Below are positions 37,795-61,637 of a stretch of DNA of 64,000 nucleotides, one piece after another. Source of the stretch: Phlyctochytrium arcticum (taxonomy: Eukaryota; Chytridiomycota; Chytridiomycetes; Chytridiales; Chytridiaceae); assembly GCA_025602905.1 (NCBI GenBank), contig JAHLKI010000003.1, positions 496,001 to 560,000 of the forward strand, given 5' to 3'. Each line of letters starts with the position of its first letter. The stretch's first letter is position 1. The position numbers and the translations under genes are program-made. The notes under the pieces were generated by a model that was not told the origin of the DNA, ran no database searches, and saw only the letters and a program-made list of their open reading frames with translations.

Positions 37795-37853
37795 ACCGCT
37801 AGTTTTTTCTAATATTCTTGACTTGGGGGTGAGGTCAAGGAAATTTTCTTGTA

Positions 37854-39622
37854 CTAACGGGTCACGGTCCAAAGTGTCTTTGTTGGTGAGGTCGCCACCC
37901 ACCACGATCGAAAGGAGCAGGCCTGCGTCTTGGAGCGACCCCCGCATTGAATCAGGCATCCTTTAAGATTGAAGTGCTCCATTTGCTTTGAGGGTCCTTC
38001 AAAATTGCCTTCCCGCAGGACTGCTTTCAGTCCACGGGATTTCTCGCACAAACTCATAGCAATAATAGGACGCGTGATGTACTCTTCTTCATCGTAATCC
38101 CAAGCAATGAGCTCGCCGTGAGACTCCGCCACTTTGCGCATATGGGCCCATCCATTGTCGTATGATGCAGCAATGGAAGTATTGCTGGGTTCCTTTGCTC
38201 GCTCAATAACATGGGCTAATGACTTCTTGGTGGAAAGGTTTTCCTCAGTCAAAGCCAGAGCATCTTTATCGCCCATGTTTTCGAAAATTTTACTGCGGGT
38301 TAGTCGCGCAGTAATTCCGACAACATCCAGAAAATCTGTTAGCTGATTGCAACCAAGGCCGGCGTGCATCATTGCGGCTGGGACCAGTTTGTTGAATGTG
38401 CAGCTGATTGCGCCTTGATTAGATTGTTGCTCAATGGTTCTGGCATCCTCAAAATTTCGAAATATTTTTGGTTGTCGGCAGGAACATTTGAGGGAAGCCT
38501 TGACCCCGAAGCCTCGCGTTTTGACGATACCCGTGTTTCGATCAAACACCCCAGAACAATCTTTGCATTTTGTTGCGAGAATATTGTTCAAAAACGTCTC
38601 GAACTCAATCAAAATAATGCTGCCGACTCGGTCACTATCAGTATTGGGCACGGATTGCGCAGCAAGGGACTCTTCACCATCGGTAGCTGCATTCTCTCTT
38701 TTACGGTGGTTCAGTCTTCTCTGCGCCAAACGCAGTTGATCTTGTTTTTCTTTCAATGCATCCTGCATTTTTGACGCATTGCGAACCGCAATCTTGTTGT
38801 TTTTTTGTGGCTTCGTCAAGCAAACGGACAGTTTCATGGTATAGCTTCAGCTTTTGACCGTGGCTCGACTTTAAAGCCTGCAGCTCATTACGCAAACGAT
38901 CACTCTCAGGAAGTGCTTGGGTTCTGCAATCCTCCAATTCAATCTAACGTAAACAGAGAGTCTCTTGCACAGGTGGCATGGCTGCTTGCAGAATTTGTTG
39001 CAGTTGGAGGGAATCTCTCCAAGCAAACTCTCTGGGTCATATCCCACGGCCTGTGCCAATGGAATGTCTTTGATCAGACGAGTGAAGGCAGTAGTCTTAG
39101 TCTTGCTGGCATTTGGTAAAACTGTCTGGCAAATTGCAATGAAGGAATCGCAGAGCACTGCAAACAGACCTCGGAAGCTGGAAGATTCTGCAGCATACTC
39201 CGAGGCAGGAAATCTTACAGTACGATGCTTATGAGTGCCAGAGACGGAAAAGAGGAAGAGTTTAAGTTGCTTGTCTGGCTTATCAGCAGAATGAACTGGT
39301 AACAATGTGGGTGCATCAGATGAGCCAACACTATCTTCGTTTTCCAATGGATTGTTGTCGTCATGCGTAAGGAAATCACTGAACTGGTAGGACGGATTAT
39401 ACCAATCATCTTGTCTTGGCTCGGTTCGGGGCTAACTTGCAATTTTCTCTTTTTATGAAACAGGTTGTTTGCCACTGCTTTGGCAAGGCTGTCTTTTCGA
39501 GCTTTTTTGAGCGATCTACTGCCTTTCTTTGCACCAATCTCCTTCACATGCCCTTGATCTTTTCGAATGTATTTTCTGTCCACTGTCTGACCTCCAGATA
39601 GAGTCTGTCGTACTTCGTCCAT
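37854..39622 (-). pseudogene. Mutator-like transposase, copy A
   Basis: Read from 39622 downwards: a basic start (RKYIRKDQGHVKEIGAKKGS), a coiled-coil region (LRNELQALKSSHGQKLKLYH, then QDQLRLAQRRLNHRKREN), a cysteine cluster (CKDCSGVFDRNTG, later LKCSCRQPK), and NKLVPAAMMHAGLGCNQLTD. The core holds AASYDNGWAHMRK (first Asp), NFEGPSKQMEHFNL and, after a frame change, VVGGDLTNKDTLDRDPLV (second Asp). This order fits the PF20700-type Mutator-like transposase family seen in eukaryotic elements. The frame is broken several times (near 39350, 38940, 38840 and 37970), some of these perhaps introns because copy B breaks in similar places. The C-terminal part, with the Glu, is absent. Confidence 0.6.
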
Positions 39623-40520
39623 GGCGGAAAATGATAGATGGTCCGATTCTCGAGTAAGTTTGTTTTATGTAATGTACAGTGATGAAGCACAAGTTCTAGG
39701 TCAAGTTGAAAGAAAACATGGCTATGCTATCTACTGTACATAACTATATACAGCTGGACAAAAGAAAAAAGTGTGTACCAAGGAATAGTTGGCAACGCCT
39801 GGCGTTGAACTTGGGCGTGGGAACGCGCACGCGTCGCGCGAGTTGCGACGTGTCTTGAACAAGTCGATCCAGTTCGCTAGGAAAAATGAATGTTTCGGCT
39901 ATTCACCGGAGGTACAGACTAACTGAACGGAATCTGGTTTACCCGACACTCTATGACTGAAGGGCCATTGGATCCCGTTGATCCATTGATCTTCTTGCCA
40001 TCCTAAATCGCACATTATTTTCCCACCCATCCTCTCCTTGTTATTTATACTTGGATCGATACATAGTTCTGACAGGGGAGACAGAGCCTCGCTATCCGCT
40101 AATACATAAAACCTTTGTTCTACGTGCGGTACCAGTGAGTACCTCAGACAAAAATACAATTGGGATGGACGTGAGTTGGCGACTGCAGGATTGGACCGGA
40201 TTGCATTAGGCTTGCCAGCCACACTTAGTGTACGACTACTAAACGCAAGCCAATTCAAATGTGAAGTCCGCGTTTGGAGCCAAACAAGGCCTGAAAAACA
40301 GAGAAATAATGTGACTGATATTTCTCTCTTGAGCTCCTAAACGAAACTTTCAAGTCCATGGGGCTCAAGATAAAGGCGAGAGCTGCAAGAAAATACTTTC
40401 AGAGTCCAATTTGCATAAAAATTGACTGAGTTGCATGAAATTCAAGATTTAATTAAAGGTCTCCGACAGCTGGTGTCCGGTGGTGTAACCCAAAACGCGA
40501 CCAAAACATAGACTAGTAAA

Positions 40521-40548
40521 GTGGCCATCTTGGGACTCCACCCTTAAA
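40521..40548. repeat. terminal motif of transposase-RecQ element (copy A)
   Basis: Ends with CTTGGGACTCCACCCTTAAA, matching 61611-61637 directly and 43638-43664 as reverse complement over about 27 bp with few mismatches. It marks the transposase-side end of the element. The base order beyond it differs in each copy, as expected at an insertion boundary. Confidence 0.75.
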
Positions 40549-40684
40549 GATCTGCGTTTGCTGGTCTCCGCGGCCGCCGCTGCATGCAAACTTGAGTGAA
40601 TGAATGTGTACAATTGAATGTATCAGAAAGGACATCAGGAAGGAAGGCAACATTGCCGTCTGCTTGCACCCAGATGCAAAAGCT

Positions 40685-40690
40685 TATATA
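40685..40690 (+). promoter_or_regulatory. TATA box of Crypton gene
   Basis: TATATA in GCTTATATACTG lies about 70 bp before the ATG at 40757, with a CT-rich leader between. Confidence 0.5.
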
Positions 40691-40756
40691 CTGTAAAGGG
40701 AGGGTACAATCACCAAACCCTCCTCTTCTTCTTCTTCATATCCGCCAACTTGAATC

Positions 40757-43073
40757 ATGGCTTCCACCGCAACTACTACTGACGCTACTGCTGATGCCAC
40801 TAATGCCGAAGCTTCGACCACTTCTGGGCCGCCTACTCTCGACCAGACCCCTCCCAATGCAGCCGCCCAACCAAGGACTAAACGGGGCAGGAAAGGCAAC
40901 AACTCAACCTGACCCGAGAGCAAGCGCAAGAACAAGGTGCCAGAACCGTTGACAACTTCCGGCTGTCCAAGGCCACGGGGATCATTTGCGACAACCGCAT
41001 CAAAGCCTTCAAGGAATATATTGCCGAAAGCTGGCCAGGTTTGTTTCGTGTTTGGAAACCGGAGGCCTTGACCAAAACACACCGAGAGATTGCCGAGCCT
41101 ACTTGGAGAATGATATGGAGAACAAGAACCTATCGTACTCAACCGCGGAACAAATTAGATCGGCTCTAAAAGACTACTTCACGTAAGTTACATGTCGCTC
41201 ACTCCTTTGTATGCTGGAACATGAACTGACCATTCCTGTCTTTCTGAGCAACAGCCAGAAGCATGATTGCTACGAGAGCAACTATGAATTCGTCGATGGC
41301 GAATGGCGAGGCACCATCAACCACAAAGACTTCAAAACATATTTCGACTCTATCAAGCGCCGGGGAAAGAGAACTTGTAAGTTATCCAAATCATGTTTGT
41401 ATGCAAGTCAGCCATGGCCTCACCTCCTCTATTTTTCTTTAGCCGAGCCGGAGCGCTCTGCCCCCATGCTCCTTCCCCAGCTAGAGCATCTGGTCCCATG
41501 GCTCAAGTCCACATTCCTCTTCAAAGACTGGGAACAAAAAATGCTACTGGCCTATTTCACGTCGGCCTGGTATCTCTGGACCTGTTCGGAAGAGCTATGC
41601 AAACTGCAAATGAAGTACGTCCGCCCCAACATCGAGGACAACGGCCTAGAATACCATGAGATCGAGTTGGTTTGGCGCAAAACCAATCAGGAAGACCCTT
41701 TGGCAGGACGAACTTACCAAATGTACCCTGCAACGGCAGAAGAGAAGGATGTCGACTCGTTTGGTTACCTAAGCGACCGGATTGCGTATCTGGACCAATC
41801 TCGGGTGGGCGGACTCCAGCAAGACAACTACCTTTTTCTAACAGTAGCCCGCAACAAAAAAGGTCCTAGCCCGTTCCGGAGGGGGACCCCATTGACAACA
41901 AAATTCCTGAGCACCTACCTCAAGAAGTGCATTGACGGCAGCAATCTATTGGGCACGGTTGCGATGGGAAGCAAGTTCACAACTCATTGCTTCCGGCAAG
42001 GAGGGGCTCAACACAGGTAACGATCGTTTGTTTATCTAGTTTTTTATTTCAAAGTTCTAATGCATATATTATTTGCAGGTTCACGTATGCGAAAATTCGG
42101 TGGTCATTGAGGGCGGTGCGATGGTGGGGTGGGTGGGGGAATGGTGAGCATATCGATACTGTTGTGAGGTATTTATTGGACGAGGTTGGTAAAAATGAGA
42201 GTTATTTGGGAGACATGATGCGGCCAGGGAGAGCACAGGAAAGCTCTCGAGGCGACTACTTTAGTGCCGAGGATGCTGAGGGAGACAGCGCGGTTGCATA
42301 TGAGCTGAAGATGATAACGAGGCAACTACAACGGGCCCGCCAAGATGTGGAAGATTTGGACAAAAAATTCTGGGTTAGTTAGTGTGCCTTGCAAGCGTGA
42401 TGAACCTTTCCCCTATGCCCTGGAAAACTTTCGACTGACTTTCTTTTTCCTCTTTCTTTCTTTCGAATTAAAGCAAATCTCCCTGATGCCGCAATGGTTC
42501 CAGGAACTACAGGAAATTAAGAGACACCTCCTGAGCCAACCCCAACACCCATCTACCCAACCCCCCAACGGACCTCCTTTCATACCGGCCACCTCTTCCT
42601 CCAACATCCCCACAACTCCAATCCCTCGCCGTGCCAGCGTTGATACGAGCCGCTCAATCCCGTCACTCCGGGGAGGCCGCAAGCGCCGAGGGAGAGACAC
42701 CACCGCCACCATTCCCCAAGCCAGCAACACCCAGCAAGAGATCATCCCAACGATCACCTATTGGTTTGAATCAATCAAGCAGTGGAATTCCGCCGGCCCG
42801 AACCTCCCCATCCCTCTCAAGTTCTGGACTCAGAAGGAACGGTCCAGGAATGCCAACACCTACTCAAACCGAAAGGAGATCGTCATTGAGGTCGAATTCT
42901 GCGGGGGTATTGCCCGATTCAACGAGATTTACGGCGCGGGACTGCTGACCGCCGACCTCAACCCAATTCCTGGAACGACTTACCTCGGCTTCAAAAAGCT
43001 TCTGGCCAAGATTTGGCAGCGCAGAATCCAAGAGGACCGGAAGGGACCCAAAACGGAAAAGCTGCTGACTTAA
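40757..43073 (+). pseudogene. Crypton tyrosine recombinase with GCR1_C-like domain
   Basis: Starts ATG at 40757 with an Ala/Thr-rich leader. A core-binding helical region follows (SKATGIICDNRIKAFKEYIA; TAEQIRSALKDYF), then HDCYESNYEFVDGEWRGTIN and HKDFKTYFDSIKRRGKRT, with introns near 41183-41255 and 41377-41442. The catalytic region has the Arg-I block WTCSEELCKLQ, where the usual Arg is Cys (CGT to TGT would explain it). Next come the H-x-x-R box HCFRQGGA and, after an intron near 42017-42079, WWGGW and the Tyr in TVVRYLLDE. The last part (42730-43073) is a GCR1_C-like DNA-binding domain (YWFESIKQWNSAGPNLPIPL onwards). This is the fungal Crypton plan. A stop after NNST near 40910 requires a frame change. 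The missing Arg-I suggests inactivity. Cryptons move by recombinase-mediated circle integration. Confidence 0.75.
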
Positions 43074-43637: not shown

Positions 43638-43664
43638 CTTAAGGGTGGAGTCCCAAAATGACCA
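43638..43664. repeat. terminal motif of transposase-RecQ element (copy B)
   Basis: Begins CTTAAGGGTGGAGTCCCAAA and is the RecQ-side end of copy B. The following 220 bp (to about 43885) also match the reverse complement of 61385-61611 in copy C with high similarity. Confidence 0.8.
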
Positions 43665-44750
43665 TAATTTTTGTCACAAGCACATTACACAAAACACGCC
43701 TGTGTGACAAGGATTCAATTAGTACACCATAAAAATGCTGCACGTTTTTGAGTTTTAAAATTACAGACATGCCGATTGGCGCAATAGATTCCTCTCATCA
43801 AATACTATAATACCATGGACTCAAAATGTAAAATTTCCTTGTTTTTGACGACAGCTTGGTCTACCATTATAATGCAGAAGGTAATTGTCCTTTTGTTTGT
43901 TGAATGAGGAGACTAGGATTGCTCACCATTCCAGATCTCCGAGAGCCCGAGTCAAGTTCCCATTATATTTGTTCCTATAGATTTCGCCTAAGTTCCCCAG
44001 TTCCCTTGGTTCCCTTGTAGGCCCCGGTACATTAGCTTGATATGATCATAGGATAGTTTACTCTCATTATCTTTTACATTGTAGCTTTACATCCTGTGTC
44101 GTTGATTGACAAGGTCTTTCTATCGAATATAAAAGCAGCCAGCCAGGTATCTTTTCCCTGGCATGCGCAACTACAAACTACTTCTTTGCCTATCTGTTGA
44201 GCTCTCTACTCTTCTATACTTTCCTCACTTCGCTATTCTCAAGTTCTTGCTCATTAACCGTTTACAGTTAAAAGTCACAGTGGCCTGGACGGCACTGGCC
44301 TGACTTTTTACCCCAGGCTTCCACGATCGACTCCGACTCCTTTACTTTCGTCTTTACTCTCACACCACAGCAAAAATCCAGCAATACAGACGAGAGCACT
44401 GAAAATTAAGAAAAGCTGAGAATAAGTAATAGTGAAAGGCAAACAATGATATAAAATAATAAAAGAAATAGGCAAGATTGGCATCATATACAGCATATAA
44501 AGCAGTAAACTGGGTCTTCCATTAGTTAGAACCAACAATGAACGGGTGTACTTGTCGTTGTGTTCCATTTTTTCTCCCAGAATCTTGAACAGAATCATTT
44601 TTGGAATCAATCCCTTAACTTGTTTGGTGGTAAGCTTACGCCTATGACTGTCGCCAAACAGGCGCCTGGCACTGGCCGCCGTGCTCTCTGGAACTTCTGT
44701 GCCAAATTTAAATCTTGGCCACAAGATCAGGAGTAACTTCTGCCCAAAAG

Positions 44751-47532
44751 CAGGGTTGACAAAACCCAAGATTTCTTGGAACCAGAGAATGGGTTTAAAA
44801 AAAACCGATTAAAACCCAAATTGCGCAGCGTTCACAGCCATATGTACTTATAGGAGGTGTGGCTATGACAATTACCAATCCGGGACAGATGGCGTACCCG
44901 TTGCATCCACGACTGCTGCTGATCTCGGGCTTGAGAGTTCGAATCCTAGCGAATGAAGTTCAATCTAATAGTTTTTTGATTTTGATTTCCACGTCAAACT
45001 TGATCTTTTGCAAAACATTTTTGTTAGTAGAAAAAATACAAGGAAATTTTCTCGCCATTGGTCCACTTATCCACCCGATGGTAGGATCAGCGATACGATT
45101 TTGCTTTCCATTGGTCATCAACTTTGTTGCATCTGCAGTAAAAACAGCAGTTGTTCAATTCTTGCCCATATAATTCGTCAAGTTGAAGACTTCTGAGTGC
45201 TGATAACATCACCACAAAGATAGCAATGTGAACATATTATGAATGTAACAAACTGAAGCTACGTAGAAAAAAGCTATATGGCTATGCTACTTATATACCA
45301 GCCATTCTCTCAGTTTATCTAGATATCTACTCACTAACCTCATGGTCGGATTCATTCAATTTCATTGGCGTTATCGTCATTCGCCTCCGGCTCGGACTCT
45401 GACAAGTACTGTGAGGCATCAGCCAGCGAAGTACCTGAAACAACGTCGTGGTTTGTCTTGATGTACTGTAAACCAGCTTCTCCACCCGTTCATTAGTAAG
45501 GGAATTCCGCAACTTCGAGTGAATGAAGCCCATGGTCAAAAAGTTGCGCTCAGATGCGGCGCTTGACGTGGCCATGGGGAATAATCTAAGAGCAAGGATT
45601 TGAAGAGCTGGCCAGGAACTCCCATGTACTTGCCAGTATTTAACTACTGATTGGCGCTTCTCGGCAAGCATTCTGTACCGCATAGAGTTTGTTGTCTTGT
45701 CTTCCTGTGCGGCAATCACAAAATCAGAATATTCAAGATCGAGCATTTCGCGGCGCTTGTCATCCACCGTGGTAACATCGTCCACAGGAATATTCAGCAG
45801 GCTCTGCTCGACCATTCTCTTGTAGGCATGATCAAGTGTCGCACCTATGTATTGCGGATCGAGCATGTAAGCAATGCCGTGACCAACCCTGTACATAAAC
45901 TTAAATTGTTGCATGACGATGTTCAAGAGATAGGCAGATTCCGCTGCGTTGATGGTTCCTTTGGGGACCAATGCCTGGTACTGTGCCGGGAGACCCAAGA
46001 AGTCAGGATAAATATCACTGATGGGGCAAGAATCAGATTGATATTTGACTATGAGCTGGTCAACTGGATGAAGCAGAGCCAAACCCTTCTCCAGCTTTGT
46101 CCTAAAGCTGTTGCTTGTAACAATATCTTTGATAATTGTTCGTTGCGCAATATCAGTAGCATTGCCTGACAGAAACCCCCGCTCACAAACAATAATGTTT
46201 AACAGATGCTCTGACCTGAGAACAGTCTCCAGGCATTTCTGCAATGATCCCCATCTGGTTGGTGCTGGTAGGGCAAGCCGGCACAGATTTTCCGGCTTTT
46301 GAAGGAGGGATAACTTGGTCTTAATCGCATGGTGATTGGTGAAGAACTTCACAACTTGCTTCACTTCATTAACAAAACTTTGCAAATGCTCGAAAGGATA
46401 ACCGTCTGGGAAGGTTGGTTCGGTAGATCCTCCTTTCTTGGTCTTGGTGGCGGCAAAGATGTCTTTTGCCAAAACATGTAAGCTGTGTGAAGTGCAGCCC
46501 TGGAAGAAAAGTGAGGGGAATTCAGTTTTCAGAAGCTCCCAATCCTTTTTGTTTGCTGCTGTATTGTCCGTGACAGCTCCGACAATATTGATTTTGTGCT
46601 TTTTGATGATCCGGCTGATATCTTGCGCAATCCATTCACCTGTATGCCCCTGCTGACCTGTGGCAACCGCTTCAAGAAACAATGACTTCTGGGATAGGAG
46701 AGTTGCCATGTAATTCACGTTTGGCTCCTGGTTAATGTTGGACCACGCATCTGATATGAGACATGCGTTCAGCGCATGATTTTGCAAAAAGTTGTCGGAC
46801 TTCGCCCTCACGGTCTCGTAGCAGGTGTCGAGCAGTTTTCCACTGAGCTGCCTTCTGTTCGGGAGGAGATCTTTGTTGGGTCTCAATAGTTTGAGCGCCT
46901 CTTTGAGATGTTGCTCTTCCACCCTCTGGAAAGCATTTCCAGTGATATAATAATGCATCGCAAAGAGCTCCCATTACTCGCTGACTTTTAGAGGCTAGTG
47001 GGCTGGAGGACGGGCCAGAGGTGGACGTTTTGGACTTCTTGGCAAACGGCTCGACCCAAGAAGGCTTCTCGGCCATAGCATTCAGAACAACCTTGAACGG
47101 AGGACACCTCCGCATCATGTGAGCCACAGCATTCTCCGATTTGTGATGGGTGGCAACAGTCTCTTTACAATGTTTGCAAACTATGTACTTCTTGGTGTGT
47201 GGCTCTACATCGTCTGTAAAATTCGCCCAGAATCCGCCCACAGTACGTCCTCTCTTTTGTGGAGCAGCGGGTGTCGTCGGAACATGACTGTTGTCATTGG
47301 GGTCAGTCATGCTTGGTTGGTAGGGTGTCCGAAGTGAGAGTGAATTGATCCCAAAACTTCACAGATCATCCGATCTGGGTCAGTTCAAGATCTGGGATGA
47401 GTCCCGGATGACTCATTAGCTCAATGTCTTATGTAAGGAGATTTAAACCCAAATCTGGTGGAGCCGAAAGACTTGGGTTTTTAAAAAACCCAATAAAACC
47501 CAATGCATTAAAACCCAGACGTGCCACCACTG
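44751..47532 (-). mobile_element. hAT element with 8-bp TSD
   Basis: The duplicated target CCCAAAAG flanks it at 44743-44750 and 47533-47540. The ends are short inverted repeats of hAT type: CAGGGTTGACAAAACCC at 44751 and, on the other strand, CAGTGGTGGCACGTCTGGGT at 47532. Several extra AAAACCC/GGGTTTT words sit just inside both ends. It contains one transposase gene and lies in the RecQ gene of copy B. Confidence 0.93.
45327..47310 (-). CDS. hAT transposase with BED finger (one frameshift)
   Basis: Starts ATG at 47310. A BED-type finger is at residues 25-70 (GGFWANFTD; VCKHCKETVATHH; H near RRCPP). A frame change near 46940 joins this part to the 543-codon frame ending at 45327. That frame has the DUF659-like region with ISDAWSN (Asp, about residue 70 of the frame) and AVTDNTAANKK (Asp, about 131). 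It then has the Trp motif PTRWGS and the C-terminal dimerisation domain WPALQILALRLFPMATSSAA followed by SERNF (Glu, about 470). All three catalytic residues are present. Apart from the frameshift, which could be an indel or a small intron, the gene looks sound. Role: cut-and-paste with 8-bp duplications. Confidence 0.88.
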
Positions 47533-48240
47533 CCCAAAAGTCGCCATCCTTAGCCAAAAAATCTACAATACTCCAAATGTCAACCATTGCCCTTTCCGCA
47601 TTGACCAAACAAGTTTGAGATGCATCTTTTGTGCATATGTCGCATGGCTGGACTTCTTCGTCAGGATGTATAGTCTTGGAAGAGATCGAGAGGCACCATC
47701 GTGCATTCACTGCCGTATTAGCGCCTGGGAAAGAAGCCAGATCGTGCCAAACACGGCGACAAATGTGCGGGTCGAGCGTGTAGACAAGTGCAGCCTTCAA
47801 ACCCAGACGCTTCTCGTTCAGTTTGGCTTTCCATAGGGCGCTCTGACGCGCCTCGCTCCGATACCCTTGCCTAATGATATAGTCCGCTTGTGTCAAGGAA
47901 CCGCTCTCCTAAATGAAAATGACAAATCATCTGGCAAGGTCATTGTTGCGGCCGGCGCAACCGCTCTCCTGCAGAAGGTCCATCATTGAACATGGCAATT
48001 CCGCCTCAATGACAAAACGAACGTCGCTCTTGTTGATACCGACTGCGAAAGCCGACATTGCAATCATGATCAATACTTCTCCTTGCTTCCGAAGGTCGGC
48101 GGCCTCCTCTTTTTCTTTGCTTCTCACTTTTCCATGGTAAATGCCCACAGATAGAGATGTCATCTCCAGAGCAGTTGCTAGTGTTATGCAGTCCTCGGCG
48201 CTTGCACAATAGAAATTCTGCATTTGTCAGTGTAATCGTA

Positions 48241-49836
48241 CAGTGACTTCCAAAAACGTTCCAATGTTTTCAATATTTTTTGAAACACATACTTTTTGCC
48301 TATGGAAGTACGGATTTGGGGGGTCTCCATTAATGAAAGAATGATCAACAGTATCCAGGGTACATCTTTCATTATGAGAGTGGAGGGATATATAGCATGT
48401 AGCCCTCAGAATTATTTTTTATACCTCTGGCATGCATTGGAACGTTTTTGCTGCGCAGCATGGATGTACCCCCCCCAAGTGGATTGTTACAATGGTAACA
48501 GGTACTATGGCAACAGCTGTGGCTTTTTTCTGATCCCCTGGGTATAAAAGACTGGCCCAGCACCAATTTCTCCTTCATTATTTGTCATGCGTCCACGTTC
48601 ACCAGACACCAAAAACAACATCCTCTCCCAGCTCTCTGCTGGACGTTCCACCCGACAGATTGCTTCAGCACTGGGTGTAGGTCAAGGCACGGTCTCCAGA
48701 GTCCGGTCAGCACTACTTCCGGATGCTCCATTGCCATCTCCCGGTCGACCCAAGCTTCTTTCACAACAAAATGTGTCTCGGGCAGTTTCCATGGTTACCT
48801 CTGGTGAAGCTGAAACTGCACCTGCTGTTGCTCGTGCTTTACAAGACGTTACCAACAAAGTTGTTTCCCCCTCTACAGTGCGTCGGGAACTGAAACGGGT
48901 TGGTTTGAAGGCTGCTGTCAAGCAAAAGAAGCCTTTACTCTTACCACGTCATCGCAAGGCTCGTATGGATTGGGCTTTGGCACATAAGGATTGGACTTTG
49001 GAGGACTGGAAACGGGTTGTGTGGACTGACGAAACCAAGATCAATCGTCTGGGGTCAGACGGACGCAAGTGGGTGTGGAAGAAGCCAGGGGAGGGCCTGT
49101 CTGATAGGTCTGTGCAAGGAACATTGAAATTTGGTGGGGGGTCTCTGATGATGTGGGGCTGTATGTTCTGGCAGGGGCCGGGATATGCCGCAAAGATCGA
49201 CGGCCGAATGGATGCCGAACTCTACTGTCAAATTCTGGAGGACGACTTTCAAGCTAGCCTTCGGTATTACAAGTTACGGCCAAGGAGCGTTATTTTTCAA
49301 CAAGACAATGATCCCAAACATACAAGTCGTTTGGCCAGAAAGTGGTTTGAGGACCACGGTTTGAAGGTGATGGAATGGCCGGCTCAAAGTGCGGATCTGA
49401 ATCCTATTGAACACCTATGGTCACATCTGAAAAAACAGCTGGCACGTTACCCCTCACCTCCTGCATCTATTCACGAACTCTGGGAACGTGTTCAGGAAGA
49501 ATGGGACCACATTCCTGCCTGCGTCTGTCAAAACTTGATTGAAAGTATGCCCCGACGCGTGGAGGCAGTTCTTAAGGCCAAAGGAGGGCACACAAAGAAC
49601 TGAATCCTAATTTTTTGTGGTATGCATCAAAAACGTTCCAATGATTTTTTTTTTTCGAATGCTAATTCCAAGGCCCAGGTTGGCTGTTGACCTTTACTGT
49701 ATTAGATAAACAACTTCGGCTTATATATAAAATCACTTTTGCATTATCCTTCATCCTGTATTTTGTAAGTTTTCGTTGTCAAATTTCATAGTCTTTGAAA
49801 AAGATCCAAACATTGGAACGTTTTTGGAAGTCACTG
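48241..49836 (+). mobile_element. Tc1/mariner element, copy 2
   Basis: Flanked by TA at 48239-48240 and 49837-49838. It has perfect 29-bp terminal inverted repeats beginning CAGTGACTTCCAAAAACGTT and is 1,596 bp long. Each end also has an inner, inverted copy of the AAAAACGTTCCAATG word. Removing it with one TA joins the RecQ reading frame (LIRKYDYTDK). Opposite orientation to copy 1. Confidence 0.97.
48587..49603 (+). CDS. Tc1-type transposase, copy 2
   Basis: Full-length 338-residue transposase with paired HTH, a GRP linker and the DD34E triad (Asp148, Asp240, Glu275), as in copy 1. About eight residues differ between the copies (for example residues 2 and 4, and the last residues TKN against AKY). 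This copy has both TIRs and TSD intact, so it is the best candidate in the window for an autonomous element. The upstream 250 bp contains a TATA-like GGTATAAAAG about 45 bp before the ATG. Confidence 0.97.
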   Translation: MRPRSPDTKNNILSQLSAGRSTRQIASALGVGQGTVSRVRSALLPDAPLPSPGRPKLLSQQNVSRAVSMVTSGEAETAPAVARALQDVTNKVVSPSTVRRELKRVGLKAAVKQKKPLLLPRHRKARMDWALAHKDWTLEDWKRVVWTDETKINRLGSDGRKWVWKKPGEGLSDRSVQGTLKFGGGSLMMWGCMFWQGPGYAAKIDGRMDAELYCQILEDDFQASLRYYKLRPRSVIFQQDNDPKHTSRLARKWFEDHGLKVMEWPAQSADLNPIEHLWSHLKKQLARYPSPPASIHELWERVQEEWDHIPACVCQNLIESMPRRVEAVLKAKGGHTKN

Positions 49837-49981
49837 TATTTTCTGATTAGCTCGTCAATCTGTTCAGCCGTTTGAGTCTTCCCACGCCACTTTTTTTCGA
49901 CAAAGAACTGCAAGTTTGGACGGTGAAGCTGTTGGCTGAAAAAGATGGCAGGGTCGACCATGCCTAACTTTGCGCAAATGT

Positions 49982-52900
49982 CCCAGCACACAACTGCCTT
50001 TTTCACTGAAATGGATTACACAGCCACCTGACCTACCGGATCTTTTCCCTGCACGTTTTTCTGGAGGCAAGTCTATTATTAGAAACCTCCCAGACAAGCA
50101 GCCAAATATGACTGGTATCCTTCTATATTGATTAAAGTTTATGTTGTAGCAGCCAGGGACCCAAAACAATACCAAAAGTGTAGAGTTTTGAGGCATTTTG
50201 GGATAGCAAATAGGAGGCCCCCAGCCTCTGAACGGTTGTAGAAAAAATGTGTCCCGGTGGAATTGGCTGAAAATGATGTATATTGTTCTCTTATATGTGT
50301 TATAGGATATGTGATGAGCTCAAGGCTGTGAGTGGGGTGGATATGGTGCTTGACAGTGATTTCATTCTGGGCTTATATCAGTGACATGAAAATGTGCTGA
50401 AGAGTACAATGAACACTAACCATAATTCTTCAGTAATCTCCACGTCTTCTTCTTCTTCTCTAACGAAATCCTTTTCGTCGAATGGAATGGTCAGGTTGTG
50501 CATCCACCATATAAAGTTTTGCTCAACAATATGTTGTTGGAGATGAGAACAAATGCCCCCATCCAGAACGGAACATTTGGCATGCGGGTGTGCCGAGCCG
50601 GCCATTGGGTTCTCGAACACTGACTCTTTTGTAAAAAATTCATTCTTCTTCCTATTTGCGGTCTTGCCTTTGTTTAGGATATCTTCTAATGGGACCCGCT
50701 TCTCTTCAATGGCGGAAAAGCTGCTGATATCTGTGCCAAGGTTGAGGGAAACCTTTTTATCACCCCACAATGCAAGTGGGAGAAGTCTTTCGCAAAACGT
50801 GACAATGATGGTGGGTGCTGGATTCATGAATGTGGCAATCTTGGTGTTAGCCCTCTTCCGCTTTTTTCCCACAAACGCGGACTCTGAATCACTTTGCTCA
50901 GGGGCAACCTTGTACCGGACCTGATATCCGCGGACCTTTTTCTTGGAAGCGGAATGGGAGAATATCATCTCGCCATGGATATATATATTGTCGGAGTTAA
51001 CCACCAGCTTTTCGAACATGCTGAGGAGAGCAGCGAACATGATTGTGAGGTGGCGGTCGTAATACAAGTCTCGAGGAGTCAGCACTTGCCGGGACGAGTG
51101 GATTCTGAATCTGCCTTGTAGATGGGCGCCAGGTGTCCGCCGCTTCCTGTCTATTGCTTGGCAACTTGAGCCAAAAAGGACCTGGCGCTAATGTTTCGGT
51201 TGGCGGAGAGAATGAGGGTTTTAAGAGTTGCAGCCGATTCAGAGTCGTGGGGTCTGATGGAAGCTCGGAGCAATGAGTAAAACACTTCCAGCTCGGAGCA
51301 ATGAGTGAAACACTTCCAAGTCTTCCGAACTTGCCAACGGAAGCTTGCTTTGGAACGCCCTCAACAAGTCCGGATTGCCACGAGACTCGATGTCTTGGAT
51401 TACCGAGAGTATGTGAACTACAATTGTGACGTAGTTCTTTTTCCGGTATCGAATGAATACGGGCAACAGGCGCTGCATGACTTCTTTGTAGAGAGAGACA
51501 TTGCCAGCGGCCATGGCTGTTGCCGCATCCAAATCTAGCGGCAACTCTTCATCAAACAGCCGAACAAGCGACTGGGTGGCAACCTGTTGAAAGGGGGGTA
51601 ATTCCTTTTGGCAGTTCTTCACTAGCGCTATGATTGCCACTCTGTTCCTCTTCCAGGCCAAGAAAGCCATCGTCAGCAGCATCATTCGCCGCACGGGCCG
51701 GAGCTTGACCAATTGAACGGCAAACCCTGGAAATGCTGCAGACCAGATGGGCATAAAAATAGCAAAGTTATGTTCGATTAATGCTGTGAAACAAAACAGG
51801 TCAGTTAATAAAGTTCATGTCAGAGCAAAACACAAACTCACTCACCCTGCTGCGCATTGAGAGCGATATGCATTCCATCCGGCCAAGGAAAGAGCAGATC
51901 CTTCAGCCATTTGTGGTCTTGGGTCATTGGTGTACGACTTTGGGCCCACAAGAATTTCATGACATTTTGCCAAACATAAAAGTCTCCAACTATCCAGACA
52001 ACTCCGTCCTTGTAATGCTTTACAAACTTGCTGACGTCAACCATTAGAACTTTGAGGTCTTCAGCGGATTTCATCCGGTTGGGAACCGCGCCAAAAATGT
52101 GGAATTGTTTGAGTTCGGCGGCGGTAGTCGACATGTCAAATCTATATAATGATCGGAACTTTGGGTTGCTGACAAGTCGGTCTCCGTACGATATGGACGC
52201 GATGGTAGCATTCATTTCATTTTGGTGGAATATCGGTGCCACGTACATCTTTTTCTTTGCATCGGAATTGAGAGCCGCCCAGTCGACATACGGTCTGGCC
52301 AGGAATGGCATCGGCAGCGCTTGCTGCACAATCCGATCATTCTCATCCCGGAATGATTCCCCTTTCGGGTAGAACTTCACGGCCAGGTTGGCTTGCGTGT
52401 GGCAAGTGGAGAATTTTCCAGAGTTGGCGGAACCAGGGGTTCCGTGTATAGAAACACGGTTGAAGTCATCCATTCTGATGACAGGGACCACTGTCCCGCT
52501 ACCCATCTCCCGTGTCAGTTCCTCGTACGCGTTTTCATTGACCATCTTCATTTTTTCCTTAGCGACATCCGGACTGTAGGTTAGGTTGAAGGATGACAGA
52601 ACCCTGCGACTGCTATCCGAAATCCCTAACGTTGTCGACAACACCGCATCTTTCATAAAGTTGATGCTCGGATTAGGAAAGGCTGCCTTTTGAATTGTGA
52701 GGGAAGCAATCATTCTTCTTTGCCTTTCCGAGAGCGTTAATTTCCAGTCATTGGCTCAGAATAAGGATTAGAGTGAGATTTTCTGATAGATGAAGGATCC
52801 CACAATACCTGAAAGATGCAAATCAACTGCTGTCTTTGTAGCAAGTTGGTCGCAGGTATCGAGGTGTTCGATAAAACCCTCTAAGTCTGTTGAAAAGGGC

Positions 52901-53910
52901 ATTTTCCCCTCAAACTCGGAATCTGCAAGCTTCTGAACACCGCTGTTGAAATGGAGTTGATCCACAAGTTCAACTGGGAGAGAAGAAGAACATGTGGTTT
53001 GCGTGGAAGTCGATTGGAAGGTCTTGTTGATAGCAATGGCACCGGTAGCTGCTGGTATACTGTTGGTAACAGATTCCATCATAATAAACGGGCCCACTCA
53101 CATTCTAGATTTAACTCGACATTTACTTGATCTTGGCGGCCGACATCTGAAATAATCTCTGCGTCGGCAAACGGATTTCGAGGTTGTTCTTGGGTGGATC
53201 TGAGAAGTGGGTGCGGATGATTTCGATCCAGAAAAACCCAGCAAGTCTTGCATAGCGAGGCCTTCTCGTGGCCAGCATCAGTGTTAAAGTGAAATTTGAT
53301 GCCCTCGGCTTGGATATGACTGAGTAGGGCTAGATCGCGATGATAGAATTGTGGACTGCTCTTGGTCCTACACTTGATACACCCAGGGGCGAAGGCATCC
53401 GTTTGTTTACAATCGGGAGTTTTTGATTTGCGTGATGATGCAGCACCGTTGGGTGAGACAAATCTGCCTCCACGTCGTAGCGGCGACTGATTTTTGGGGG
53501 GGCTACCTGCCATGATTGCTCGAATGTGTCCCGGTGAATATGCTTGAAAATTGAAAGAGAGCGAGGTTAGGTGGTAGTTGGGAGGATCTGAGTATTCTCG
53601 TCACCTCACTGTGCAGTGCAACCAAGTTACAGGTCCTGGAAGGGGGGGTCATCTAAAATGGCAATTGCGGTCGAAAAAGTGCACACAACTGATGTCATGG
53701 CTACAGTTTCCCGCCCGAATTGTCACATCTCTAAACTAGCATACTCATACTTGAACTTCGAGAGGTTTAAGCGCAACTTTACTACATTTTTTGGCCACTG
53801 ACAGGTCCATATTGATTTCGCAAGTTGGGTTGGCGGAGCGCGTCAAAACTCTGATTACCTCAGCGAGGCTGGTATATTCATTTCGGTGAAAAAGGCAGAT
53901 GTGTGCTGGG
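49982..53910 (-). mobile_element. DUF6589-like transposon, 8-bp TSD, TIRs
   Basis: The target GCAAATGT is duplicated at 49974-49981 and 53911-53918. Ends are inverted repeats of about 34 bp with a few mismatches: CCCAGCACACAACTGCCTTT at 49982 and, on the other strand, CCCAGCACACATCTGCCTTT at 53910, continuing through TTCAC-GAAATG. Length 3,929 bp. It carries one multi-exon gene on the minus strand and interrupts the RecQ gene of copy B. Confidence 0.88.
50378..53513 (-). CDS. DUF6589-like putative transposase, multi-exon
   Basis: Starts ATG at 53513 (MAGSPPKNQSPLRRGGRFVS). A cysteine/His region follows (CIKCRTKSSPQFYHRDLALL; ASLCKTCWVFLD). An intron lies near 53060-53103, then SSLPVELVDQLHFNSG. 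The main exon (52713-51838) has VVPVIRMDDFNRVSIHGTPG (candidate first Asp), AALNSDAKKKMYVAPIFHQN, and VWIVGDFYVWQNVMKFLW (candidate second Asp), followed by LFPWPDGMHIALNAQQGEL. That GD...P-PDG-HI-LN pattern is what I associate with DUF6589-type fungal proteins. The next exon (51754-51239) contains RYRKKNYVTIVVHIL. The last (51085-50378) has basic and acidic stretches and a Cys/His patch (HPHAKCSVLDGGICSHLQQH). The clean TIR/TSD frame argues that this is the element's transposase. Exon limits and catalytic residues are provisional. Confidence 0.6.
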
Positions 53911-54829
53911 GCAAATGTCATTCAACTTTGGCCGGGTAACTGTAGCTGTCAGAACGAGTGTGGGTATACTTGTGGAACCATGCATTCTCATGGGCGAATT
54001 CGAGCTCTTCATTTGCTGGATGTGGTCGTAGTCTCCAAAATCGTCCCATTGATCAGACAAGTGGACTTCATTGATGACCATTTGAACTTTCTTATACGCG
54101 CTGCGCTGAATATGCAGTAACATATTTCGGAAAGAAGGCAAACCCAGCCTTTCTGGCGTCACAAGAAGAATCTGCAGATATCCCCTCTTCAAATCCTCCC
54201 GAATTGCATTGAATGCCGACCATTTTGTGGACCCTGTGATCTGCGCGGTTGGTATATGGATTTCAAGCAATGAACTGTACTGATCTTGGATCAAACTCAA
54301 CGTCGGTAGTATCACAATGGTAAGAGAGCGTTCGCTTTGTACAATCGATGGCACGGTGAAGCAGATGCTTTTGCCACGACCGGTTCATGCTACATATGCA
54401 GTGTCCATGTTGCTCAGGAATGACTTACAAACATCCAACTGTGAATCCCGAAAGGAGTCATAGCCATAAAGAGTTTTCATGGCAAACACGCAACCTTTAT
54501 CCGGGTCCACATGACGGATGGTGCCCAACAGATTCGACACTAATTCTGCGACCAATATGTTGCTGCCCTCAACCCTGGCGGTGTACACGGCCATGCAACA
54601 AACATTGCACAGTCCATCTATGCTTTGCGGCATGATCTGGCACCCGACACACTTCAGACATGTCTGCCAGTTCTTGACTTTTGACGACCAAGAAGGCATG
54701 TATACGGGTTCGGGAACGTGCTCCCCATATGACTGGTATGGCGCATTCCAATCGAACAGTCTAGATTCCCACGTGGCTTCCGCAATTGTTTCCTTGCAAA
54801 TGTGGTTTCGTTCCTGAATACTGTATCTT

Positions 54830-57181
54830 TAGACTCCGATTCAATCAAGTGTAGATCTGCCTGCGTAAGATTGGGCAAATTGTAGGCCTTACAAACCAGT
54901 ATAATGTTTTGGGTCCTACCCAGGACGGTTAGATGATACTTTGGTCGATAGGAGGCCCAGTAGTCTACAGACTTTGGGGTCCTCCTCGTCCATTTGTGAT
55001 TCAATGCTTCGTTAGGGGTGGTGCGCATGAGAGTGATGATCTTTTACGCCCCATTCACACTAAACAAAACTTCGATCATTTTGGTAAATCCGGGGATGTA
55101 GGCAGGGGTGTCTTCGGTGAGGTTGGGAGATCCCAGACGTTGCTCGTGGTTATTTAGCTTGTGACAACGAGTCTCCCACTTGCAGTCAGAGTGATCAACT
55201 AGAGTAAAATTTGACAATGATTAATTAATGTCTTTAGAAAACAGCAACTCACTTGACAACCAACTCACCTTGTAGATGCTTGGAAAAAACTGTCAGTAGA
55301 GAAATTTGATCGGTGGGGGCACATGCGTCGTTATGCTGAACTGCCCAATAGACTGTATCGCGAAAATAGTTTAGTATAACATCTTCCCAGGCACTGACAT
55401 AGTCTCGGTGATTGATTTTGATATTTTTTCTAGTGTTCTTGACTTTGTGCGTGAGGTCAAGGAAAATTTTGGTTACCAGCGGGTCACGTCTTTGCTGGTA
55501 AGATCGCCGTCCACCACGATCAAAAGTTACAGGCCTGCGTTTTGGAGCGATCCCCGCACTGAGTTCAGGCATCAAAAGAGGTTGAAATGATCCATTTTCT
55601 TTGAGGGACCCTCAAAATTGCCTTCCCGCAGGACTGCCTTCAGTCCACGACCTTTCTCGGCCAAACTCATAGCAATAATAGGACGCGTAATGTACTCTTC
55701 TTTATCGTAATCCCAAGCAATCAACTCGCCATGGGACTCCGCCGCATCGCACATATGGGCCCATCCATTGTTGTATAATGCAGCAATGGAAAAATTGTAG
55801 GTTTCCTTTGCTTGCTCTATAACATGATCAATTGCCTTCATGATGGATTGTTTTGCCTCAGTCTCAATCAAAGCCAACGCATCTTTATCTGCCATGTTTT
55901 CAAAACTTTTACTGAGGGTAAGTTGCGCAGTATCCATCAGCTGATTGAAACCAAGGCCGGCGTGCATCATTGCGGCCGGGACCAGCTTGTTGAATATACA
56001 GCTAATTGCGCCTTGTTTCGATTGTTGCACATTGGTTCTGGCATCCTCAAAATTTCGAAATATTTTTGGTAGTTGGCAGGAACCTTTGAGGGATACTTTG
56101 ACCCCGGAGCCTCGTACTTTGACAACAGCCGTATTTCGATCAAACACGCCAGAGCAATCTTTGCATTTTGTGGCAAGAATATTGTTGAAAAAAGTCTCGA
56201 ACTAAATGAGAATAACGCTGCTGACTTGATCACTTTCAGTATCAGGAGCGGATTGCGCAGCAGTGGACTCTTCACTGTTGGTAGCTGCATTCAGTCTTTT
56301 ACGGTAGTTCAGTCTTCTCTGAGCCAAACGTAGTTGATCTTGTTTGTTTTTCAATGCATTATGTAATTTTGATGCATTGCAAACCGCGACCATTTGTTTT
56401 TTTGTGGCTTTGTCAAGCAAATGGACAGTTTGATGGTACAGCTTCAGCGTTTGACCGTGGCTCGACTTTAAAGCCTGCAGCTCATTACGCAAACGATCAC
56501 TCTCAGGAAGTGCTTGGGTTCTGCAATCCTCCAATTCAATCTCACGTAAACGAAGAGCCTCCTGCACAGGTTCCATGGCTGCTTGTAGAATTTGTTGCGG
56601 GTGGAGGGAATCTCTCCAAAGCAAGGTCTCTGGGTCATATCCCACGGCCTGTGCAAATGGAATGTCTTTGATCAGACGAGTAAAGGCAGTGGTCTTAGTC
56701 TTGCTGGAATTCTGTAAAACTGTGTGGAAAATTGCCAGGAAGGAATCACGCAGCACTGCAAACAGACCTCGGAAGCTGGAAGATTCTGCAGCATACTCCG
56801 AGGCAGGAAATCTGACAGTACGATGCTTCTGAGTGTCAGAGATGGAAAAGAGGATGAGTTGAAGTTGCTTGTATGGCTTATCAGTAGAATGAACCGGTCA
56901 CAATGTGGGTGCATCAGATGAGCCAACACCGTCTTTGTTTTCCAATGGAGTACTCTTGTTATGCGGAAGGAAATCACTGAACTGGTAGGACGGATTATAC
57001 CAATCATCTTGTCTTGGCTTGGTTCGGGGCTAACTTGCAATTTTCTCTTTTTATGAAACGGGTTGTTAGCCACTGCTTTGGCAAAGCTTTCTTTTCGAGC
57101 TTTTTTGGGCGATCTACTGCCTTTCTTTGCACCAATCTCCTTCACATGCCCTTGATCTTTCCGAATGTATTTTCCGTCCAC
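54830..57181 (-). pseudogene. Mutator-like transposase, copy B
   Basis: The same protein as copy A but reaching further. It shares the basic start, the coiled coil (LRNELQALKSSHGQTLKLYH) and the GAISCIFNKLVPAAMMHAGL block. Its core has AALYNNGWAHMCD (first Asp changed to Asn; copy A has YDNGW), then NFEGPSKKMDHFN. After a break it gives DPLVTKIFLDLTHKVKNTRK (the family's DH-HK-KN block), a DAWE segment and, after an intron starting GTGAGT near 55268, HSDCKWETRC and TTPNEALNHKWTRRTPKSVD (candidate Glu). So the full protein ends close to 54830, and RecQ coding begins within about 50-100 bp. Frameshifts and the Asp-to-Asn change make this copy inactive. Confidence 0.62.
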
Positions 57182-57765
57182 TGTCTGCCCTCCAGATCGA
57201 GTCTGTCATACTTTGCCCATGGCAGAAAATGATAGATGGTCCGATTCTCGAATAAATTTGTTTGATGTGTATAATGTACAGTGATGAAGCGCAAGTTCTA
57301 GGTCAAGTTGAAAGAAAACATGGCTATGCTATCTACTGTACATAACTATATACAGCTGGACAAAAGAAAAAAGTGTGTACCAAGGAATAGTTGGCAACGC
57401 CTGGCGTTGAACTTGGGCGTGGGAACGCGCACGCGTCGCGCGAGTTGCGACGCGTCTTGAACAAGTCGATCCAGTTTGCCAGGAAAAATGAACGTTTCGG
57501 CTATTCACCAGAGGTACAGACAAACTGAACGCAATCTGGTTTACCCGACACCCTATGACTGAAGGGCCATTGGATCCCGCTGATCCATTGATCTTCTCGC
57601 CTTCCCAAAGCGCACATTGTTTTCCCACCCATCCTCTCCTTGTTTTTTTTACTTAGATCGATACATAGTTCCAATGAGGGAGACAGAGCCTCGCTATCTG
57701 CTAACCTCGGACAAAAATAATATTGGAATGGATGTGAGTTGGCGACTGCAGGATTGCATTAGGAA

Positions 57766-58720: not shown

Positions 58721-58732
58721 TGGTATCAGATC
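58721..58732 (+). promoter_or_regulatory. copia-like tRNA-Met primer-binding site
   Basis: TGGTATCAGATC matches the canonical TGGTATCAGAGC at ten contiguous bases and then diverges. Its position immediately after an LTR-like stretch supports the reading. Confidence 0.4.
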
Positions 58733-58739
58733 TGAAACT

Positions 58740-60009
58740 TGACCGTTTGGCGATGGTCATCCGAGCCTGACCAATGCGCAGTAGGTAAGGTTAACAAAGA
58801 CCAGTCCGATGGTGGAGTGGAATAGTTCTTGGGCAACACCGGAGCTCGGCTGGATCGAAACTCGGTAGTTTGTTTTTGGTGAAACTTTTTTTTTTGATAA
58901 TTTTGTCGACATTTTCTCAAGTACAAAGTAAAATGCACTCTGCACTGAAGATGAAGATGAAGGATTCTAATATATAGATGAGAGGGAGATGGTTGGTTAA
59001 TTGTTGCCTCTTTCATGATTTTTTTTCTTGTCTTTTCCTTTGATGTCAATGTGGTAAATCAGTTGGGTTCAATTCACAACCTATTCTGAGGTTGACAACC
59101 GCAATGGCGCAATTGCAACCCAAGTATTTTTATTTCCTGAGATCTAGGCAGGATGTGCACTAGATATGGAATAGCTTAAGGCGGATTCATTCCTTCTTCA
59201 TCCTGATGCAGGAATCCTCACTGGGACGTCCGAGCCAGCGTCCGAGCAAGGTTCATGTTTGACCAATGATTGACCCGGCAGCAGCAGTGCAGCACAGAAC
59301 GGAACATTACGGACGTATGATGCCCTTCCCGGTAGTACCCGATATATGTAGCCTGGTAGCGCCGCGCAGCCGTGGTCATGGTGGTCATGGCACGGGCTAC
59401 TCACTACCTACCAGGCCGACTACCATACTCATTTGCGAATGACCCGCAAGCGGGGAGGCTCCTCCTTTTTGAATTCTTTCAAAGTTGGTCAATCCCCCAC
59501 TTTCCTTTTGAACTGTATGATAATCAACCTTTACAAATACACAAACTCAAACATTATCATACCTTCTGGGAATATATCCGTAACGGTATCTTTGGGTCTT
59601 TCAGTTGCCATGTACTGTAAGTACCCTTTTGCGGTAACCGGTTTTTACATCTCATCTATTGTTTACCCGGCGGCTGTTCTAACCCGGCCCACGCGTGGGG
59701 TGATGTGCTGTATGTGGTGAAGACGTGGGGCAGAGGTGGAGGCCAACGTGATACTGAGGACATAGAGGAAGTGGTGATGGCAACAATTACAAGCTGGGAC
59801 AAAGTCCCAGGCTAAAAGGATGCTGGGACAAAGTCCCAGACCAAAAGAATGATCAGGGAGAGTTAACACGAACTGCGGTGTATCCAAGAGTTCCTCTTGA
59901 CCATATAAAATCAACTCCCACCCCTCAATTAAGGAAGAAAATGATGCCAGTTTGTCAATGGGCGTTGTAATAGTCAAGGAAGAAATGTCCGTGGTGGTTG
60001 AATAGAGCA
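58740..60009. other. no gene; small repeats
   Basis: No coding region is supported. Contains two hairpin-like CTGGGACAAAGTCCCAG words (59794 and 59823), and at 59398-59434 a segment resembling 35281-35317. Confidence 0.35.
59794..59839. repeat. two copies of a 17-base hairpin word
   Basis: CTGGGACAAAGTCCCAG occurs at 59794-59810 and 59823-59839. Each is a perfect 7-bp stem with an AAA loop, 29 bp apart, with AAAAG following both. Confidence 0.85.
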
Positions 60010-60017
60010 CACCTGGA

Positions 60018-61122
60018 TTGGGCTTCGCCCCATCCCCCTGGCATACACACGTTTTCAGCAAACAATTACACCGTCCCAATCTGGAATTCATTGTCAACTC
60101 GACTGCGCGAGGGAAAAGCAAGCTGGCGCAGGAGATTGTTGCCATTCTCACAAAACACGACTACCTAGATAAATGTGGTATCATATATTGTGCAAGCGCT
60201 GCCGACTGCATCACGTTAGCAGATGCATTAGAGACCGCATCTCTGTCTGTCGGGATTTTCCACGGCCAGTTGAGAAGTGAAGAGAGAGATGAGGCCATGG
60301 CATTTTGGAGGCAGGACACATTTTCAATCATGATCGCTACTACCGCTTTCGGAGTTGGGGTCAGTAAGAGCAACGTGCGATTCGTCATCCAAGCCAAGTT
60401 GCCGGCCTCCATGATGGACCTTCTGCAAGAAAGCGGCCGCGCGGGACGTGACAACCAGCCTGCCAGATGCTTCCTGATGCTACCAAACCCAGGATCACCA
60501 GAGCCAATTTTGGACGGCAAAGCTGAATGAGATACGCCTGGCTTTGAAAGCTTGACATATTTACGCAACCAATAATCACATTTGTCGGCGGTTTTGGCAT
60601 AATATGGCGCTCTTTCCCAAAAGCAATGCCCCAGTGGATGCGCGTATGTGCCTGCCTACTTCCTTCAAAGAAATTTATCCTGAAGAAGAAGTAATTCCAT
60701 GCGATGTCTGTCGGAAGGATGCAGCCCAAAATCGTATCACCAATGCAGAGATAGCCATCCAAGACATCATCGATATTATAGATTTCTTAGCTCGGGATGA
60801 AGATTTCGAAGGAGATGCTACTGCTGCTATCATTGCCAAGATTTACGGGTGGCATACTAACACGAAAATACCGGAGTTGCCTCAGAGCACAGCGGATATC
60901 GCAAGGGAGCGCTTCGGAAATAGGGGCGGAACTAGTGGCCGCGGCAGGCGCAAGCTCAATGTTCAGCAAGTCAAGGAACTCATCTCGAAAATGGTCCTAT
61001 TCCGAGTGCTGGCCCAGAATATAAAGAATACCGAGAAATCATATGTTGCCTTGTTGGCCGTTATTTCCACTGCAATACCTACCCAGATACCAAGCTTACT
61101 TTTCGATACACTATACAAATGA
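60018..61122 (+). pseudogene. RecQ-family helicase, copy C (C-terminal half)
   Basis: The first part (60018-60531) has FSKQLHRPNLEF, DKCGIIYCASAADCITLADA, FHGQLRSEERDEAM, IATTAFGVGVSKSNVRFVIQ and the intact motif VI LLQESGRAGRD. A stop at 60528 and about 70 noncoding bases separate it from part two (60604-61122). There the zinc-binding end CDVCRKDAAQN is followed by a helical region, GRGRRKLNVQQVKELISKMV and the C-terminus. Copy B has extra residues between these parts, so a deletion happened here. The helicase N-terminal lobe, with Walker A and DEAH, is absent. This copy is younger or less decayed than copy B (motif VI unchanged) and is therefore the best guide to the original sequence. Confidence 0.82.
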
Positions 61123-61610
61123 TCATCGCAACACTCATCTCACCTGTCGATAATTTAGTTTATGCCGCGCGATAGTTTTTTTGCATCCTTTTATCCTTTT
61201 GCTTATTTACTCTCTTCAATGTCAGACAACATCATTTTCTATACCATCTTCATTGTTGTCGACGGTTGTTGCTGTCGTGTGAGATTACAAGGAAAGAAAA
61301 GGAGTCGGAATCGATCGCGGAACCCTGGGGTAAAAAGTCAGGCCAGTGCCCATCCAGGCTACCGTGACTTCGAACTAAGGGACAATTACCTTTTGCAATA
61401 AACAGTAATGGTAGACCACACTGTTGTCAAAAACAAGGAAATTTTACGTTTTGAGTCCATGGTATTATAGTATTTGACGAGAGGAATTTATTGCCCCAAT
61501 TGGCATGTCTGTAATGTTAAAACTCAAAAAAGTGCAGCATTTTTATGGTCTACTAATTGATTCCTTGTCACACAGGCGTATTTCGTGTAATATGTTTGGG
61601 ACAAAAATTA

Positions 61611-61637
61611 TGGTCATCTTGGGACTTCACCCATAAG
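61611..61637. repeat. terminal motif of transposase-RecQ element (copy C)
   Basis: Starts TGGTCATCTTGGGACTTCAC and ends CATAAG. It matches 40521-40548 directly and 43638-43664 inverted. Confidence 0.75.

Follow-up and report, generated by a model that had tools for sequence, protein, structure and literature searches.

KolobokH is described in PMC9587614 as a lineage of Kolobok DNA transposons found only in fungi, in which a RecQ helicase lies downstream of the transposase. For Kolobok in general, the same paper gives a TTAA target duplication, 5'-RR/YY-3' termini and a C/DxxH signature between the second D and the last E of the transposase, with a zinc finger placed after this signature and before that E. 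Sources of DEAD plus Helicase_C domains include AcademH, KolobokH and Helitron (PMC10799480), and KolobokH is reported to sit beside telomeric repeats in Cladobotryum mycophilum (PMC10989895). Here we analyzed a 64 kb window of the chytrid Phlyctochytrium arcticum (contig JAHLKI010000003.1, positions 496,001 to 560,000), which holds three partial copies (A, B and C) of one kind of transposon with a transposase and a RecQ helicase; all three are decayed and none has both ends. These pieces are very probably degraded relatives of a cut-and-paste DNA transposon of the KolobokH type. We file the element under KolobokH because its traits match the published ones, namely a TTAA duplication, 5'-RR ends (here GG), DxxH, a RecQ downstream of the transposase and a fungal host; the combination of transposase and RecQ has already been described under that name and is not new. 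The host here differs in being a member of the Chytridiomycota, while the species named as examples in the cited passages are Rhizophagus irregularis and C. mycophilum. The element of C. mycophilum likewise has RecQ-like helicase genes; it is reported in PMC10989895 to be ~10.5 kb long with two such genes and telomere-adjacent, whereas the element here is ~6 kb long, has one RecQ and is contig-internal.

Coordinates without a contig label refer to the window, and labels such as C3 or C14 to contigs of the P. arcticum genome. The original prediction, made from the letters of the window, had assigned one end and the N-terminal transposase half to copy A, the transposase, RecQ and the other end to copy B, and the RecQ half with that same end to copy C; end motifs, repeat blocks and Pfam domains confirm this gene order and strand (Table 1). 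The shared end motif, predicted at about 27 bp and inverted between the two sides, proved to be 26 bp including TTAA, and is located at 40522-40547 (-), 43639-43664 (+) and 61611-61636 (-). These sites show 1, 1 and 2 mismatches, respectively, to a single 26-base string; elsewhere in the 64 kb, the sole site with no more than 8 mismatches has exactly 8. The motif opens with TTAA, the target duplication, and the terminal repeat proper reads GGGTGGAGTCCC; at the end of copy C the TTAA position reads TTAT viewed from outside. In the Pfam search, the copy A open reading frame (ORF) 37857-38846 passed the cut-off for PF20700 'Mutator' (6.8e-10), and the RecQ parts matched DEAD (ORF 53881-54384) and Helicase_C (ORF 60006-60527, 3.8e-16), while the copy B transposase piece stayed under all cut-offs (PF20700 0.018; a peptidase model scored better, 0.0035).

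Copies A and B share nine direct-repeat blocks across the 5' part and transposase (D1-D8 and D10, 80-96% identity), with 75% protein identity in the transposase. Copies B and C are 86-89% identical in the tail (ungapped pieces I1 and I5 91-93%, I10 86%), and their RecQ coding parts are mostly only 68-71% identical in DNA (I2, I8) and 63% in protein, for which reason we regard them as relatives and not as near-identical copies. That the tails are more alike than the coding parts is the opposite of what coding constraint would give, and perhaps reflects exchange of ends between subfamilies. About 370 bp of the copy B tail are unmatched in copy C, and bases 1-37800 of the window gave no match to pieces of copies B or C. 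Copy B has lost the element 5' end beyond ~57760, has a stop codon immediately ahead of the Walker A motif of its RecQ, and has its transposase-RecQ junction disrupted by a frame change and stops. Its extent of 14,122 bases falls to ~5.9 kb after subtraction of three nested elements (the ends of the hAT being approximate), and adding the 354 bases of 5' end present only in copy A gives an element of ~6.25 kb.

Complete relatives were found by searching 18 stitched stretches of the genome, mostly of ~3 kb, for TTAA-flanked inverted ends that agree at 14 or more of 20 positions. Two stretches held such a pair, C3:737137-743363 (18/20, 6,219 bp between TTAAs) and C14:678859-684659 (17/20, 5,793 bp); the best inverted-end scores in 60 base shuffles per region were 15 for the C3 region and 13 for the C14 region. 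Both lengths, together with the window reconstruction, bear out the predicted ~6.1 kb. Both copies have TTAA on both sides, inverted ends beginning GGGTAGTC, and transposase and RecQ genes. Their ends, TTAA-GGGTAGTCACCGA, resemble the TTAA-bordered repeat of the window, and the termini inside TTAA read GG...CC, as the Kolobok 5'-RR/YY-3' form has it. A genome scan for the 17-base end TTAAGGGTAGTCACCGA gave 6 exact matches, and 22 at up to 2 mismatches versus 6 in a reversed control. The window-family end pattern gave 24 matches at up to 3 mismatches versus 18 in its reversed control, so that only the three window sites (up to 2 mismatches) are meaningful. A paralogous empty site lies at C5:655260-655506; it aligns with the two flanks of the C3:737k copy, once these are joined, at 72% over all 224 bases, and a single TTAA in it pairs with the TTAA at the flank junction. 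These structural observations support a cut-and-paste mode of insertion at TTAA. As a separate observation, C3:1129786-1129815 holds two element ends that face outward and have one TTAA in common.

In a six-row transposase alignment, the motifs ADGxW, DGDL, DLPH/DLTH and NEA/NET align across families, with YDNGW in the position of ADGxW in the window family and DRDL in that of DGDL in the C2 copy. The C/DxxH signature reads DLPH in the C14, C3 and C2 copies and DLTH in copy B. Read after the Kolobok description in PMC9587614, these motifs would represent the DDE triad and C/DxxH signature, with the flanking D and E presumably catalytic. Cys and His residues, candidates for the four ligands of a zinc finger, lie between DxxH and the last E (DHTSCMDELCW in C3, DHSDCKWETRCHKLNNH in copy B). 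The two genes are joined in frame: ORF C3:234418-236295 (626 aa, copy C3:230k) runs from a transposase C-terminus with NEA through RecQ DEAD and Helicase_C, and the predicted gene model P0001 of the C14 copy (1,445 aa) has the transposase first, followed by DEAD at 863-1032 and Helicase_C at 1083-1190. Transposase and RecQ would accordingly seem to be made as one polypeptide, judging from these reading frames. For the C3:737k copy, the transposase model P0002 matched PF20700 at 1.6e-7 and the C14 copy at 47% over the P0002 core. A protein search with the fused query, in which the best 8000 candidates were scored, returned 2 models of this species and 11 other proteins, all of which carry helicase domains.

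Across the genome, transposase and RecQ occur in the same order and on the same strand at eight places, which upholds the prediction that the two genes are regular partners. Places with a single gene are mostly fragments; C10, C11:392k, C15 and C34 were not retrieved and most others were seen with ~1.5 kb on either side, and since only short flanks, or none, were inspected, absence of the partner is not established there. The census omits 12 of the 29 RecQ-search rows (23-29% identity), which were taken as other helicases. Seven separate stretches with element pieces lie within ~0.5 Mb of one contig (C3:231-743 kb), a cluster picked out post hoc.

The best PDB matches of P0001 were an ATP-dependent DNA helicase (7a8r, 8.1e-38), Q1 (3.1e-37), RecQ (4tmu, 1.7e-34) and BLM (2.2e-33), which identify the predicted helicase as a RecQ. 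A RecQ protein search gave 617 matches, and among the 120 listed identity was at most 34%, save for one model of this species. A tree with cellular RecQs, as the original prediction had advised, separated the 8 element rows (one of which merges copies B and C) from 10 cellular rows, chosen from those 120, by a branch supported at 100/100. In this tree the window family is deeply divided from the others, and likewise in a small transposase tree (7 rows, one long). Between C14 and C3:230k, the proportion of nonsynonymous differences (pN) was 0.205 over 518 RecQ codons and 0.144 over 95 codons of a transposase piece, with synonymous proportions (pS) of 0.84 and 0.87, respectively; as pS is saturated, no ratio of nonsynonymous to synonymous rates (dN/dS) is given for this pair. 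For RecQ, dN/dS was 0.15 between C14 and C3:659k, and 0.43 and 0.39 between C2 and C3:604k. Thus, both transposase and RecQ were retained during divergence of the families, and recent copies are drifting. Taken together, the eight places with both genes, the separation of the element RecQs from the ten cellular ones and the conservation of transposase and RecQ across families suggest that the helicase is a durable, functional component of the element. A further open RecQ frame of 649 aa in the same group lies at C4:953674-955620, with an identical stretch on C83 and no transposase in the fetched 3.4 kb; it is possibly host-retained, or a remnant.

Several observations weigh against the KolobokH reading. 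Membership of that lineage is judged from architecture and ends. All window copies are broken, with the second D changed to G in copy A and the first D to N, plus stops, in copy B, and the complete copies are also imperfect, that on C3 having stops in RecQ and that on C14 having DEAY instead of DEAH. For the C14 copy, the corresponding genome search with its two flanks joined gave no empty site. PF20700 was undetected in P0001 in the Pfam search, and since P0001 is without stretches found in P0002, it may be partly mispredicted; its transposase part, searched against 5.8 billion proteins with candidates limited to 0.55-1.75 of the query length and sharing exact words, matched itself alone. Two elements of 0.6-0.7 kb have both ends and neither gene. 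The original prediction had counted complete copies with the end motif and only one of the genes as evidence against a regular partnership; such a case occurs once, at C3:661312, where a deletion derivative has a 5'-type end, RecQ ~230 bp further on and no transposase, while the two complete long copies carry both genes. Finally, in the recent pair C3:230k and C3:735k, dN/dS over both parts was 1.02, 0.98 and 1.12, values near 1 that by themselves lend selection no support.

These near-neutral ratios, with the commonness of one-part fragments, are also what would be seen if RecQ were a passenger, captured once and carried without function. We consider this improbable, given that RecQ is conserved across families as the transposase is, stands in the same frame, and is found with the transposase at eight places. 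Less probable still is that RecQ serves telomere-directed insertion or telomere maintenance and not transposition as such, for which the reported telomeric position of KolobokH in C. mycophilum would speak. For this genome, the telomere idea in the original prediction found no support: all eight places with both genes, on contigs of 0.24-1.76 Mb, are more than 80 kb from the contig ends (the telomeric repeats themselves were not searched), and near contig ends there are only a 5'-end fragment (C12:9 kb) and the RecQ of C83, a contig of 28.7 kb.

The identity first proposed, a Mutator-like element (MULE) that had captured a RecQ gene, draws on the name of PF20700, 'Mutator-like transposase', which suggests a distant kinship between the transposases. 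MULE target duplications are 8-11 bp long. The complete copies show instead a 4 bp TTAA duplication, with GG directly after TTAA, and DxxH, and we hold a true MULE to be very unlikely; a MULE with an 8-11 bp duplication is rejected on account of TTAA in the complete copies and the single-TTAA empty site. The Pfam label 'Mutator-like' extends to this relative. AcademH, a different transposase superfamily whose target duplications differ from TTAA, shares with the present element a place among fungal DNA transposons with a helicase and is listed beside KolobokH as a source of these domains, but the fit of the transposase to PF20700, DxxH and the TTAA duplication, as given for Kolobok, leaves it with hardly any probability.

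Copy B is interrupted by three nested transposons. The largest, at 3.9 kb, has inverted ends CCCAGCACAC; none of its ORFs reaches the Pfam cut-off (the best hint being DUF6589, 0.11), and its 305-aa ORF 51841-52755 has 180 genome matches, which suggests a transposon-like family of high copy number. Literature searches on DUF6589 and on transposable elements of P. arcticum turned up nothing pertinent. Copy A is truncated at ~37801 by an apparent Helitron 3' end (hairpin, CTAG; read by eye), next to which lies a PIF1 helicase ORF (35843-37153); by eye, the same Helitron-like end also breaks a RecQ copy at C3:663.4k. ORFs at 41187-42020 and at C3:231647-233074 look tyrosine-recombinase-like by eye, perhaps Crypton-like; a Pfam search of the former gave nothing above the cut-off.

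Table 1 Features of the window and of related places in the P. arcticum genome.
Feature	Position	Strand	Remarks
Copy A, transposase-side end	40522..40547	-	TTAA at 40544-40547 (target duplication) and terminal inverted repeat GGGTGGAGTCCCAAGATGGCCA
Copy A, N-terminal part of the transposase with the 5' non-coding region	37802..40521	-	PF20700 at 37857-38846
Copy B, transposase, decayed	54921..57220	-	DLTH at ~55450; NEA-motif stretch 54921-55196
Copy B, Cys-cluster linker and N-terminal part of RecQ (DEAD)	53920..54882	-	DEAD 1.7e-15
Copy B, RecQ C-terminal part (Helicase_C end, Cys cluster)	47429..48238	-	
Copy B, 3' tail with the terminal inverted repeat of the RecQ side	43643..44799	-	repeat at 43643-43664
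Copy B, TTAA at outer edge	43639..43642		
Copy C, RecQ C-terminal half	60006..61122	+	Helicase_C in ORF 60006-60527; Cys cluster 60541-60717
Copy C, 3' tail and RecQ-side end	61123..61636	+	end at 61611-61636
Nested transposon, abundant unnamed family, within copy B RecQ (not part of the element)	49982..53910	-	flanks GCAAATGT(C) both sides
Nested Tc1/mariner in copy B (not part of the element)	48239..49838	+	identical 31-bp inverted ends (I7)
Nested hAT transposon in copy B (not part of the element)	44800..47490	-	Dimer_Tnp_hAT, DUF659; ends approximate
Short gene-less element	C18:107764-108347		0.6 kb; TTAA both sides
Short gene-less element	C11:386895-387586		TTAA one side, TTAT other
Both genes	window B, C36:88k, C14:680k, C3:234k, C3:740k, C3:606k, C2:1410k, C2:1490k		
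RecQ, no transposase seen (10)	window C, C3:661k, C4 (=C83), C31, C3:617k, C10, C11:392k, C15, C17, C34		
Transposase, no RecQ seen (8)	window A, C37, C11:150k, C26, C1, C18, C3:277k, C29		

As a mechanism for the KolobokH-type element, we propose a single reading frame, formed by splicing, that encodes a Kolobok-superfamily DDE transposase together with a RecQ helicase. The transposase part would bind the inverted ends (GGGT...), excise the element and insert it at TTAA, duplicating TTAA. Being joined to the transposase, the helicase would be brought to the ends and to the donor gap, and may work on the DNA of the element itself, either as it is excised or afterwards. Most likely it would unwind or resect DNA at the ends of the transposon or at the donor gap, and the gap would then be recopied from the sister or homologue, such that copies are kept. 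This helicase role is the part of which we are least sure, with gap copying as first choice and end processing as second, at about even odds against other roles. The full combination, in which in this chytrid lineage one polypeptide of ~1,445 aa couples TTAA excision to helicase-driven, copy-gaining donor-gap copying and the host has in addition kept at least one freed RecQ (C4/C83), is a tentative proposal that we regard as rather unlikely as a whole.

The above analyses correct a plausible but wrong Mutator label, and, for a transposon lineage with a helicase to which the cited passages give only a few sentences, supply complete copies, an empty site and a fusion of the two genes in one frame. 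If transposase and RecQ are indeed one protein, the role of the accessory helicase would be directly testable through one active-site change.

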